DNA of 33,612 nucleotides, taken from positions 1 through 33,612 of IMG/VR virus record IMGVR_UViG_3300036800_000164. One strand, written 5' to 3'. The first letter of the stretch is position 1; every line of letters starts with the position of its first letter. Shown one piece after another: positions 4,847 to 7,344 of this stretch. The position numbers and the translations under genes are program-made. The notes under the pieces are model-generated. The model did no database searches. It worked only from the letters and a program-made list of their open reading frames with translations, and had not been told where the DNA came from. The stretch comes from a virus.

Positions 4847-5016
4847 GCGCGGGCCTTGGCGGCGTCTGCGGGGTAGGCGTCGCCGCGGCCGGGGTTGGGG
4901 CGACCGTCGGTGTCGCCGTCGCACAGCGGGTCGTACGCGTCACCGATGTCGACGAGGGAGGGGCGTTCACGAATCCAGTCGTGGCGCGCCTCATCCTCAA
5001 TTTGCTGATGCGTCAT
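4843..5016 (-). CDS. hypothetical acidic microprotein (57 aa)
   Basis: Starts MTHQQIEDEARHDWIRERPS at ATG 5016, overlapping the upstream stop as ATGA. It is strongly acidic and hydrophilic, with a helical N-terminal half and a Gly/Asp-rich tail (DPLCDGDTDGRPNPGRGDAY). No signal peptide, membrane segment or known motif. Confidence 0.65.
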   Translation of the reverse strand: MTHQQIEDEARHDWIRERPSLVDIGDAYDPLCDGDTDGRPNPGRGDAYPADAAKARA

Positions 5017-5239: not shown

Positions 5240-5568
5240 GCGTCACCCCACCAGATCGACAGGAGGTGAACGTCACCGATCCGGGTCAGGATCTCGTCCG
5301 CGAGCCGCAACCGGATCTGGCCGTCGTCGCGGGCGCGGCCAATGATTCGCTGCTCACCCTTGGTGAGTTCGCGGTACCGGTCGCTTGCCGCGCCATGGGC
5401 GATCGGGTGGAGCGCCCCGAAGTGCTCGAGGATCGGGGTCGCATCGACATAGCCGTTGCGGCGCTGCGGGTGCCGTGTCCGGGCTGGGGAGCACTCTGGG
5501 TGCTCGCCGACACGGCAGAGATACCGCAGGCAGTGCGGGCACACCCCGGCAACGGCGGTCGCGGTCAT
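5236..5568 (-). CDS. zinc-binding hypothetical protein (110 aa)
   Basis: The N-terminus carries Cys10, Cys13, Cys18 and Cys26 (CPHCLRYLC...C), a likely zinc knuckle. The C-terminal two thirds look helical, with LTKGEQRIIGRARDDGQIRL and an ADEILTRIGD block that could be a helix-turn-helix-like fold. The start ATG 5568 overlaps the upstream stop as ATGA, and the 3' end overlaps the 48-aa membrane protein. No specific family recognised. DNA binding is a reasonable guess from the cysteine cluster and basic helix. Confidence 0.75.
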   Translation of the reverse strand: MTATAVAGVCPHCLRYLCRVGEHPECSPARTRHPQRRNGYVDATPILEHFGALHPIAHGAASDRYRELTKGEQRIIGRARDDGQIRLRLADEILTRIGDVHLLSIWWGDA

Positions 5569-5771
5569 GTGGCGTGGTCCTCGATCTCATCCCACGCCGC
5601 CCACGGCGCGAGATGATCGGCAACCAGGATCGCTTCCCGGCATTCCGGGCAGAACCACTCCTCATCGCGAAGCATCCACCTGGACGCAGCGTTGCGGAGG
5701 ATCGACGATGTTGCGGCGTGCTCAAGGTCGCTGTGGCCGCAGGTCGCGCACGTCACGGCCGCGGTCCTCAC
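5565..5771 (-). CDS. small zinc-ribbon-like protein (68 aa)
   Basis: Two CxxC pairs, Cys8/Cys11 and Cys41/Cys44 (CATC ... CPEC), are spaced as in a zinc ribbon. The start is GTG 5771; no strong ribosome site is seen, so an internal GTG a few codons later is possible. The C-terminus is acidic and Trp-rich (LAPWAAWDEIEDHAT). It is separated from the Cro-like gene by 97 bp in which I see no gene, and it heads the overlapping chain of small early genes. Confidence 0.7.
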   Translation of the reverse strand: MRTAAVTCATCGHSDLEHAATSSILRNAASRWMLRDEEWFCPECREAILVADHLAPWAAWDEIEDHAT

Positions 5772-5868
5772 GACGCCGCCCGGTTTTGCTTACGTCCTAT
5801 GTGTCCGGTCGCACACAACGCGCGACTCGATGGGTGCACACTGCGGTGATGGACGGTAAGACCACGCA

Positions 5869-6075
5869 TCAGGCAACGACCTTCGACTCATCGAAGAGGT
5901 CCGCTTCGGTCGTTCCGAGGGCGACGGCGATCGCGGCGCGCTGGTCGACCGGCACGTGAAGGCCGTTCGCGAAACGCGACAGCGTCGACTCCTGAATGCC
6001 GAGCTCGGCGGCGATGTCCTTCTGCGGCCGCCCGGAGGCAACGATCGCGAGCTTCAGGCGGGTGACCCGTTTCAT
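5869..6075 (-). CDS. Cro/C1-type HTH DNA-binding protein, Cro-like (68 aa)
   Basis: A 68-residue protein that is almost entirely an XRE-type helix-turn-helix: PQKDIAAELGI (second helix) and QESTLSRFANGLHVP (recognition helix and turn), then the usual ALGTTEADLF closing helix. It has no dimerisation or cleavage domain, as for Cro. It is the first gene of the leftward early operon, diverges from the plus-strand repressor-like gene, and lies under a promoter whose -10 is covered by a perfect palindrome. Expected role: repress the divergent repressor promoter and its own at lytic onset. Family sure, role inferred from layout. It could instead be an excisionase-type regulator. Confidence 0.85.
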   Translation of the reverse strand: MKRVTRLKLAIVASGRPQKDIAAELGIQESTLSRFANGLHVPVDQRAAIAVALGTTEADLFDESKVVA

Positions 6076-6078
6076 CGT

Positions 6079-6093
6079 GATACGAATCGTATC
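6079..6093. promoter_or_regulatory. 15-bp palindromic operator over the -10 box
   Basis: GATACGA-A-TCGTATC is a perfect palindrome with a single central base. It covers the -10 element and start site of the leftward promoter, which is a classical position for a phage repressor/Cro operator. A second ACGAATC lies 15 bp away at 6097-6103. Confidence 0.75.
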
Positions 6094-6115
6094 GCCACGA
6101 ATCAGGGTTTGTCAA
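6079..6115 (-). promoter_or_regulatory. early leftward promoter, near-leaderless
   Basis: On the minus strand TTGACA (6115-6110) is followed after 18 bp by TACGAT (6091-6086). The expected start of transcription, 6-8 nt further on, falls at about 6079, only 3-4 nt before the ATG at 6075. No ribosome site is present, which fits a leaderless mRNA as is common in actinobacteria. Confidence 0.75.
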
Positions 6116-6119
6116 ATCG

Positions 6120-6135
6120 TTGCGCAACTAGTTGC
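6120..6135. promoter_or_regulatory. overlapping palindromes before the repressor-like gene
   Basis: TTGCGCAA (6120-6127) overlaps GCAACTAGTTGC (6124-6135), both perfect palindromes, ending 9 bp before the ATG at 6145. They are a second operator candidate with a sequence unlike the 6079-6093 site, so a different protein may read it. No clear -35/-10 pair was found for the rightward promoter. Confidence 0.6.
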
Positions 6136-6144
6136 ATCCATGGG

Positions 6145-6534
6145 ATGCCGCGGCCGCGCCTGATGCACGAGGTCCTGCGCGAGCTGCGCGGCCCAATGAG
6201 CCGCTCCCACCTATCGCGCCTAACCGTCGGCCCCGGACAGGTCTACGTCGGCGAAAAAACGATTCAGGCGCTCGAAGAAGAACTCGGCCGCGTCACGAAA
6301 GCCGAGATCATCGAAGCGCTCGCCACCGCGCTAGGCGTCGAACCCGACGTGTTCTACGAATACCCGATAGCGCTCGCGCAACGCGAGGGACGCGCCGCTA
6401 AAGACGCGAAACGCGACGCGCGGCAGCGGGAGGCGCAAGCTCTACAGGACCGAGCCCAGCAGCGATCCGGGCATCCCGAAGACGCTCCCGATACCAGGCC
6501 AGCTCCTCAACGTCGTCGCAGCACAGGCAAATGA
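6145..6534 (+). CDS. repressor-like DNA-binding protein (129 aa)
   Basis: Starts MPRPRLMHEVLRELRGPMSR at ATG 6145; no ribosome site is visible, so it may be leaderless. Residues about 10-85 have a compact helical fold with SRSHLSRLTVG (possible recognition helix), EKTIQALEEELG and AEIIEALATALGVEPDVFYE, the last being typical of the end of an XRE-type domain. The C-terminus is a long, charged low-complexity helix (AAKDAKRDARQREAQ) and tail. It is divergent from the Cro-like gene over shared palindromes, hence a likely lysogeny repressor, although it lacks the LexA/C1 peptidase domain. Its 3' end overlaps the opposite-strand gene at 6398-6706 by 137 bp. Confidence 0.75.
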   Translation: MPRPRLMHEVLRELRGPMSRSHLSRLTVGPGQVYVGEKTIQALEEELGRVTKAEIIEALATALGVEPDVFYEYPIALAQREGRAAKDAKRDARQREAQALQDRAQQRSGHPEDAPDTRPAPQRRRSTGK

Positions 6535-6706
6535 GCGCCAGCTCGTACCCGCGCACAACCTCGAGCGCCGCCGCATCCCTCGCGACCTCAAGCCGCCGAT
6601 CGGGCGCCGCGGCAACCGCCTCGGTCGCGACGAGCGAAAGGGTTGAGTGCGTCAGCTCCAGCTGGTCCACCGGGAGCAACGTAGCGACGCGCACGGACAT
6701 GAACAT
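6398..6706 (-). CDS. hypothetical protein, convergent with the repressor-like gene (100-102 aa)
   Basis: A minus-strand frame with coding-like composition: MSVRVATLLPVDQLELTHST, then helical segments (RRLEVARDAAALEVVRGYEL) and a LICLCCDDVEELAWYRERLR block. The start is ATG 6706 or, two codons later, 6700; no strong ribosome site. It overlaps the 3' end of the plus-strand repressor-like gene by 137 bp, so one of the two frames there must be tolerated by the other. An antirepressor or regulator in the lysogeny region is conceivable but nothing shows it. It may be spurious. Confidence 0.45.
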   Translation of the reverse strand: MFMSVRVATLLPVDQLELTHSTLSLVATEAVAAAPDRRLEVARDAAALEVVRGYELALICLCCDDVEELAWYRERLRDARIAAGLGPVELAPPAAARRVSRL

Positions 6707-6729
6707 ACAACGCCCCAGGAGCCGAAACG

Positions 6730-7257
6730 ATGCGTAGAAGCCAGCTCGCAGCCGCCACGATCATCGCCATACTCGCGGCTGCGAGCCCGGCGGCCGCGCA
6801 CGGGAAGCTCCGGCCGTTGACCGTCAAGTTCGGCCACGCCCAGGCGCAGGGCTTCGCCGACACGTTCGTCGCGTCCCGCGTCGACGTGAACGACGCGACC
6901 GCCAAAGGCGTCTTCGACTGCAAGCACCCCGACCCGCTGCACGTCGCGTGCCTCGTGCAGTACGACTACGCCAGCGGCGTGATCTGCGTCGACCGCATCA
7001 CGGTGGCCCGCGACGCCCGCCACGTGTACCTGGGCCAGCGTGCCGCGAGCTGCACGCCGCTCCCCGTGACGCCGCCGCCCGCGCCGGTGGTCGCGCCATC
7101 CGTGGTCGCGCCGGTCGGGTTCTGCGACACCCACGCATGCATCCCGAGCTTTGCAAGCGGCACCGGCTACCCCGTCGAGTGCGCCGACGGCCTCTGGAGC
7201 CAGTCCGGTGGGCGGCCCGGCGCCTGCTCCGGGCATGGCGGCGAGCTGAAGCCGTAG
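6730..7257 (+). CDS. secreted cysteine-rich protein, prophage cargo (moron) (175 aa)
   Basis: ATG 6730 has AGGAG 9 nt upstream. Residues 1-23 are a signal peptide (MRRSQLAAATIIAILAAASP ending AAA before HG). The mature part has about ten cysteines, a Pro/Val-rich linker (TPPPAPVVAPSVVAPV) and a C-terminal domain with GFCDTHACIPSF and CSGHGGEL. That end resembles the small DUF3761-like domains of secreted actinobacterial proteins, and the wording is like proteins I know from Solirubrobacterales. It lies alone on the plus strand between lysogeny and lysis genes and is followed by a strong terminator, the classical layout of a moron expressed from the prophage. The target outside the cell is unknown. 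Confidence 0.85.
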   Translation: MRRSQLAAATIIAILAAASPAAAHGKLRPLTVKFGHAQAQGFADTFVASRVDVNDATAKGVFDCKHPDPLHVACLVQYDYASGVICVDRITVARDARHVYLGQRAASCTPLPVTPPPAPVVAPSVVAPVGFCDTHACIPSFASGTGYPVECADGLWSQSGGRPGACSGHGGELKP

Positions 7258-7264
7258 AACGAGT

Positions 7265-7292
7265 GAGGGCCGCCCTGTCCGGGGCGGCCCTC
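7265..7292. terminator. bidirectional hairpin terminator between lysogeny and late regions
   Basis: GAGGGCCGCCC and GGGCGGCCCTC pair perfectly over 11 bp around a 6-nt loop, 7 bp after the cargo gene stop. The late operon converges on it from the right (last gene ends at 7345). A GAAAA run follows on the plus strand, not a T-tract. Confidence 0.8.
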
Positions 7293-7344
7293 GAAAACGA
7301 CAGGAGCAACGCGACCGGAACGCTACCCGGCTCAGCGGACAGAA

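Follow-up and report, generated by a model that had tools for sequence, protein, structure and literature searches.

Comparable systems

The PY54 immunity region contains divergent cI and cro genes, each of which was found by 5' RACE to give one leaderless mRNA that begins at the AUG (PMC4488713). PY54 Cro has a single short palindromic operator, which it binds ahead of cI, and repression of cro by its own product is considered unlikely (PMC4488713). The locus investigated here, which lies in a 33,612-base viral record (the whole analysed stretch, hereafter the window), resembles PY54 in its divergent genes, with a candidate palindrome as the counterpart of the short operator of PY54 Cro. Unlike the PY54 transcripts, which were mapped and are truly leaderless, the window transcript has a leader of 3-4 nt that is predicted only, and the palindrome of the window, unlike the PY54 operator, lies on the -10 box of the Cro-like gene itself.

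A promoter counts as bidirectional when its divergent transcript starts are 7-25 bp apart and its -10 elements overlap (PMC10268837; see also PMC12825309); loci in three relatives (G004, G011, and G019) and in L139, which carries a homologue of one of them, are similar to this, whereas the window itself differs. In the conjugation switch of pLS20, the regulator and target genes face apart, their divergent promoters overlap, and operator motifs lie on the core promoter (PMC4207663). Overlapping divergent promoters and operator motifs on the core promoter are the features likened here to pLS20, which differs in that it governs plasmid conjugation, has a long untranslated leader, and uses DNA looping; the part of that paper on which we drew does not mention a leaderless start. 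In mycobacterial leaderless genes, which account for about one-quarter of transcripts, the promoter directly precedes an ATG or GTG in the absence of a Shine-Dalgarno (SD) sequence, and leaderless initiation in the strict sense calls for a 5'-terminal start codon (PMC4633059). The phage group described here likewise places a promoter close before the start codon, without an SD; however, the mycobacterial start codon is exactly +1, whereas leaders of 2-5 nt are predicted from spacing in most of this group. A literature search joining leaderless initiation, bidirectional promoters, and phages returned nothing but one broad synthetic-biology review, which, with subscription journals mostly outside the search, is weak evidence of absence.

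Promoter and predicted start of the Cro-like gene

Among the genes of the record (33.6 kb, classed as linear, 67% G+C) are those for an SNF2-type helicase, a terminase, a P22-like portal, and a capsid protein. Distant matches to the capsid protein were found in 14 phage records (26-31% identity among the matches listed), and since these are mostly (11 of the 14) Arthrobacter, Microbacterium, or Cellulosimicrobium phages, the host of the window's phage is likely actinobacterial. Integrase domains are present in 9 of the 15 records scanned, and the lineage is probably temperate; a scan of the 33.6-kb linear record of the window itself found no integrase domain. The promoter and the two divergent reading frames are arranged as follows:

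6110 to 6115, minus strand: -35 hexamer TTGACA of the early promoter, assigned from the sequence
6086 to 6091, minus strand: -10 hexamer TACGAT, at a spacer of 18 and 10 nt ahead of the ATG
6078 to 6079, minus strand: predicted transcript start, 7-8 nt past the -10 box, placed by spacing
5869 to 6075, minus strand: 68-aa Cro-like HTH_3 gene (ATG at 6075-6073), with a coding-like base pattern and codon use
6145 to 6534, plus strand: divergent 129-aa ORF, with its start at 6145 or 6163; a possible degenerate HTH regulator

The promoter TTGACA-18-TACGAT (10/12), which the original prediction had placed before the ATG of a Cro-like gene, was confirmed on the minus strand, where TCGTATCACG (10 nt) separates its -10 box from ATG 6075. 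It is the sole promoter-like site between positions 5000 and 8000 (0.2 expected from shuffles), and only five sites of 10/12, including this one, occur in the 581,532 bases of the window and 14 related records. No SD-like match of at least 3 bases lies within reach ahead of ATG 6075; a TGA at 6112-6114, inside the -35 box, closes the 68-aa frame 12 codons upstream; and ATG 6075 is the sole ATG, GTG, or TTG among the first 30 codons of the gene. Among control genes (n = 212), the 5'-most starts had a maximum promoter score of 6/12 at the same distance, and when as many as six starts were allowed for each gene, the best one scored 8/12 in 2 of the 212 and 9/12 in none. L008 was omitted from the control set because its match scores against the query were identical to those of L007.

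If +1 falls 7-8 nt after the -10 box, the leader of the 68-aa mRNA is predicted to be 3-4 nt long, and this mRNA would be near-leaderless rather than strictly leaderless. Such spacing fits the earlier proposal of a start 3-4 nt before the ATG, which stands as a prediction and not as a mapped end. Further minus-strand ORFs, that of the SNF2 helicase included, lie downstream of the 68-aa gene.

The Cro-like assignment of the 68-aa protein held up: its match to HTH_3 (PF01381) is just above the cut-off (23.4 bits versus 23; E 6e-5), and it matches PHROG transcriptional repressors down to 1.6e-7. The 129-aa protein had been taken for a repressor as well, and this found no support, as its HTH_3 score is below the same cut-off (15.3 bits versus 23; E 0.021), and its AF2 model, built without relatives, is of low confidence (pLDDT 63) and has no PDB match at E 0.001. 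An hhalign comparison with five Cro-side proteins of relatives gave a weak match (P 2e-4, probability 45%), and the protein may be the repressor of the pair. The 3' third of its ORF overlaps a minus-strand ORF at 6398-6706. We found no convincing promoter for the 129-aa gene, the best plus-strand candidate scoring 7/12 with a gap of 24. The window presents two divergent ORFs, of which one (68-aa) is a clear regulator, with three perfect palindromes in the spacer between them. Beside them, at 6730-7257, lies a plus-strand ORF, possibly expressed in lysogens, that has an SD and begins like a signal peptide; its DUF3761 match is weak (E 0.013, below cut-off).

Near-leaderless promoters in related phages

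Relatives were gathered through the capsid protein, which yielded 38 records with loci, the first set of 15 being contained in the 38; HTH_3 matches above cut-off occur in 4 of these 15 and in 5 of the other 23. Other searches returned no DNA match to positions 5300-7300 among phage records, no viral relatives of the 129-aa protein or of the SNF2 helicase, and, among genome contigs, no relative of the 68-aa protein or (in one pattern scan) of the capsid protein. One candidate from the 68-aa search, L002, was dropped, as it is an AT-rich contig with only a short HTH stretch in common.

A scan of 581,532 bases (35 pieces from 15 records, with overlaps counted) supports an enrichment of near-leaderless strong promoters in these phages, often, by their predicted products, serving small regulators. 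At eight of the 48 sites scoring at least 9/12, an ORF of ≥50 aa has its 5'-most ATG or GTG 6-11 nt downstream, whereas 0.9 would be expected from the random rate of 1.87% (49,000 random places; binomial p 2.9e-6). When any ATG or GTG at 6-11 nt is counted, the number becomes 9 of 48 (p 0.004), and there is no comparable peak at other distances, except at 42-47 nt (5 of 48). By plain count, five of the eight near-leaderless genes encode small HTH or RHH-like proteins (that of the window, two in G004, and one each in G029 and G003); the RHH match of the G003 protein is below the Pfam cut-off. L117 (641 bases) was left out of both the promoter and the palindrome scans.

Near-leaderless promoters precede HTH genes in both directions in G004 and G011, and on the plus side in G019, where the minus-strand HTH gene has a -10-to-start gap of 15. 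In G011, a second start behind an SD-like stretch makes the near-leaderless start at site 38327 doubtful. The minus-side HTH gene of G007 has a near-leaderless promoter with a weaker site. In G016, the gene with such a promoter is a small one that occupies the Cro position, and the HTH gene divergent from it appears SD-led; the small protein has no Pfam match. The layout was not seen before the HTH genes of G013, G023, or G028; the plus-strand HTH start of G013 is at least 21 nt from its -10 box, and the G028 HTH gene has an SD. G020 was left out of this tally, its HTH match having no assigned start. In G003 (L103:3468-3644), G016 (L121:8885-9091), and G029 (L137:10269-10439), the near-leaderless promoter belongs to the gene of a small RHH or RHH-like protein, and the G016 and G003 proteins have an SGELR stretch in common.

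Palindromes in the spacer and at the -10 boxes of relatives

The spacer between the two divergent ORFs of the window contains the following palindromic elements:

6079 to 6093, no strand: perfect 15-bp palindrome GATACGA-T-TCGTATC, a candidate operator over the -10 box and the predicted +1
6119 to 6135, no strand: second palindrome cluster, GTTGCGCAAC / GCAACTAGTTGC, a further candidate operator, 10-26 nt ahead of the ATG of the 129-aa ORF

The 15-bp palindrome, with 7-bp arms around one central base, reaches the predicted +1 if this is at 6079 and not if it is at 6078. It had been described as covering the -10 box and the start; because it ends 3 nt before the ATG, this is right for the -10 box and for the predicted transcript start at 6079, but not for the start codon. 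A further claim, that a bound repressor would block the leaderless start besides polymerase, is unsupported, since a DNA-bound repressor stops transcription, not translation. The second cluster consists of two more perfect palindromes (6119-6128 and 6124-6135), and its half-sites differ from those of the 15-bp palindrome, which suggests two binding proteins.

An operator function of the palindrome on the -10 box is plausible. The best reading of the locus, and one that we consider fairly probable, is that of an operator-covered, near-leaderless early promoter belonging to a Cro/CI-type switch; the layout, the lack of an SD and of other starts, and the recurrence in relatives are what it rests on. 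In this reading, transcription by a σ70-type polymerase would begin 3-4 nt ahead of the ATG of the Cro-like gene (68 aa), and the resulting mRNA, with almost no leader, would rely on a leaderless-type mechanism for its translation. Binding of a dimeric HTH regulator to the 15-bp palindrome would occlude the -10 box and the start site, and would shut off the 68-aa gene along with the minus-strand genes behind it; the palindrome pair at 6119-6135 would probably serve the divergent gene likewise. We infer the switch role of the promoter from this arrangement.

A rather unlikely alternative is that the promoter and the near-leaderless start are real and the palindrome is there by chance, with any regulation acting through 6119-6135 or elsewhere. 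There are eight perfect 15-bp palindromes in the whole window, so one somewhere is unremarkable, but the chance of finding one in the 69-bp spacer is small (p ∼0.005, Markov model of the spacer), and that of finding it together with a gapless, perfect palindrome whose arms are ≥6 long (as at 6124-6135) is smaller still (p ∼1e-4). An inverted repeat as good or better is found near the -10 box in 6 of 419 background promoter-like sites. The sequence of the window's palindrome is not shared by the relatives, which mostly lack a strong -10 palindrome, yet near-leaderless promoters as a set are enriched in inverted repeats centred near the -10 box: 5 of 14 sites attain a score that is matched at 15 of the 419 background sites (p 9e-5, or 9e-4 after dropping one G004 row), although these p values are optimistic, as the 14 sites were chosen after inspecting the sequences. 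This set omits the G011 plus-strand HTH site (7/12, with three matches in the -35 box). Nine of the 14 sites score <5.0, the background 95th percentile, and so have no strong palindrome at the -10 box; in G003, the -10 box is flanked by two 7-bp half-sites. A perfect -10 palindrome as a trait of the group was rejected, being absent from most relatives.

Overlapping divergent promoters in relatives

Divergent pairs of HTH_3 genes above cut-off are present in G004, G007, G011, G013, and G019, and the two gene starts are 26 bp apart in G004, 22 bp in G011, and 33 bp in G019. A further locus, L139, encodes an HTH protein with 65% identity to that of G004; it reads TTGACG-17-TATTGT-9-ATG in one direction and TTGACT-17-AATACT-9-ATG in the other, with 26 bp between the starts, and retains on both sides the geometry of the G004 pair (-10 box, 9 nt, start codon). 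In G004, G011, G019, and L139, the -10 boxes on opposite strands overlap and the predicted transcript starts are 19-21 bp apart, which by sequence places all four within the definition of bidirectional promoters. The window lies outside it, as no plus-strand -10 box with A2, T6, and a good -35 box overlaps its minus-strand -10 box.

These four loci, with spacings inside the 7-25 bp of the definition and with overlapping -10 boxes (PMC10268837), lend some weight to an otherwise improbable reading, in which the palindrome of the window reflects a bidirectional promoter, with a symmetric -10 box read both ways, and is not primarily an operator; however, the plus strand of the palindrome gives TACGAA, which lacks the T at position 6 and has no -35 match, and the best plus-strand candidate elsewhere is the 7/12 site with its gap of 24. 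In a further, very improbable reading, transcripts of the 68-aa gene begin at a more distant minus-strand site and run past the 102-aa ORF at 6398-6706, and the palindrome acts in RNA. The positive codon bias of that ORF speaks for it; against it, no SD occurs in the spacer, the sole promoter-like site in 3 kb is the TTGACA promoter, and arms that leave a one-base loop would, judged by their layout, form a short stem at most.

The compact early promoter is, in the window alone, a mild case: it is real, somewhat unusual, and understandable. The relatives show a recurring design with a more compact form, and are the more interesting lead. In G004 (L033 1321-1376) and L139 (1463-1512), the divergent HTH genes open with near-identical codons for M/V-T-S-Q-A (MTSQA and MTRQD in L139). 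The reason is that the first codons of either gene contain, in inverted orientation, the -35 box of the promoter of its partner; in G004, the inverted repeat formed by the -35 box and first codons is perfect over ∼14 bp. We tentatively propose, as a possibility rather than a probability, that the switch of this lineage is one short symmetric promoter, in which opposed regulator genes stand 22-33 bp apart, most of them near-leaderless, with overlapping -10 boxes and with each -35 box within the first codons of the other gene. A polymerase bound one way would exclude binding the other way, so that its orientation would itself join the decision. In the window, on this view, the arrangement would have loosened, the promoters having moved apart and the -10 palindrome having taken over the exclusion.

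If these readings are correct, a promoter, an operator, a transcript start, and a start codon are packed into ∼40 bp, and some relatives hold two opposed genes in one promoter. Such loci would offer a small natural test bed for how polymerase competition at one symmetric promoter shapes a switch, as well as for how mRNAs with leaders of 2-5 nt are translated.

Other repeats and neighbouring genes

Several further repeats occur in the window. At 32064-32093, a long near-perfect palindrome, TTTGCGGCATAATT-AC-AATTATGCAGCAAA, coincides with a promoter-like site and scores highest as an inverted repeat among the 419 background sites. At 33000-33090, the arms of an inverted repeat, CCCTCGTGTTAAGG / CCTTAACACGAGGG, are some 50-70 nt apart and adjoin an ORF of different base style (32356-32979) near the end of the record. 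A perfect 23-bp palindrome, GCTCGAGGAGCTGCTCCTCGAGC, is located at 2523-2545, within an ORF at 2206-2694. Among the relatives, L034 (∼1330-1486) and L036 (1380-1574) each encode, beside their HTH genes, a small membrane-like protein with a common RPLxNVT end.
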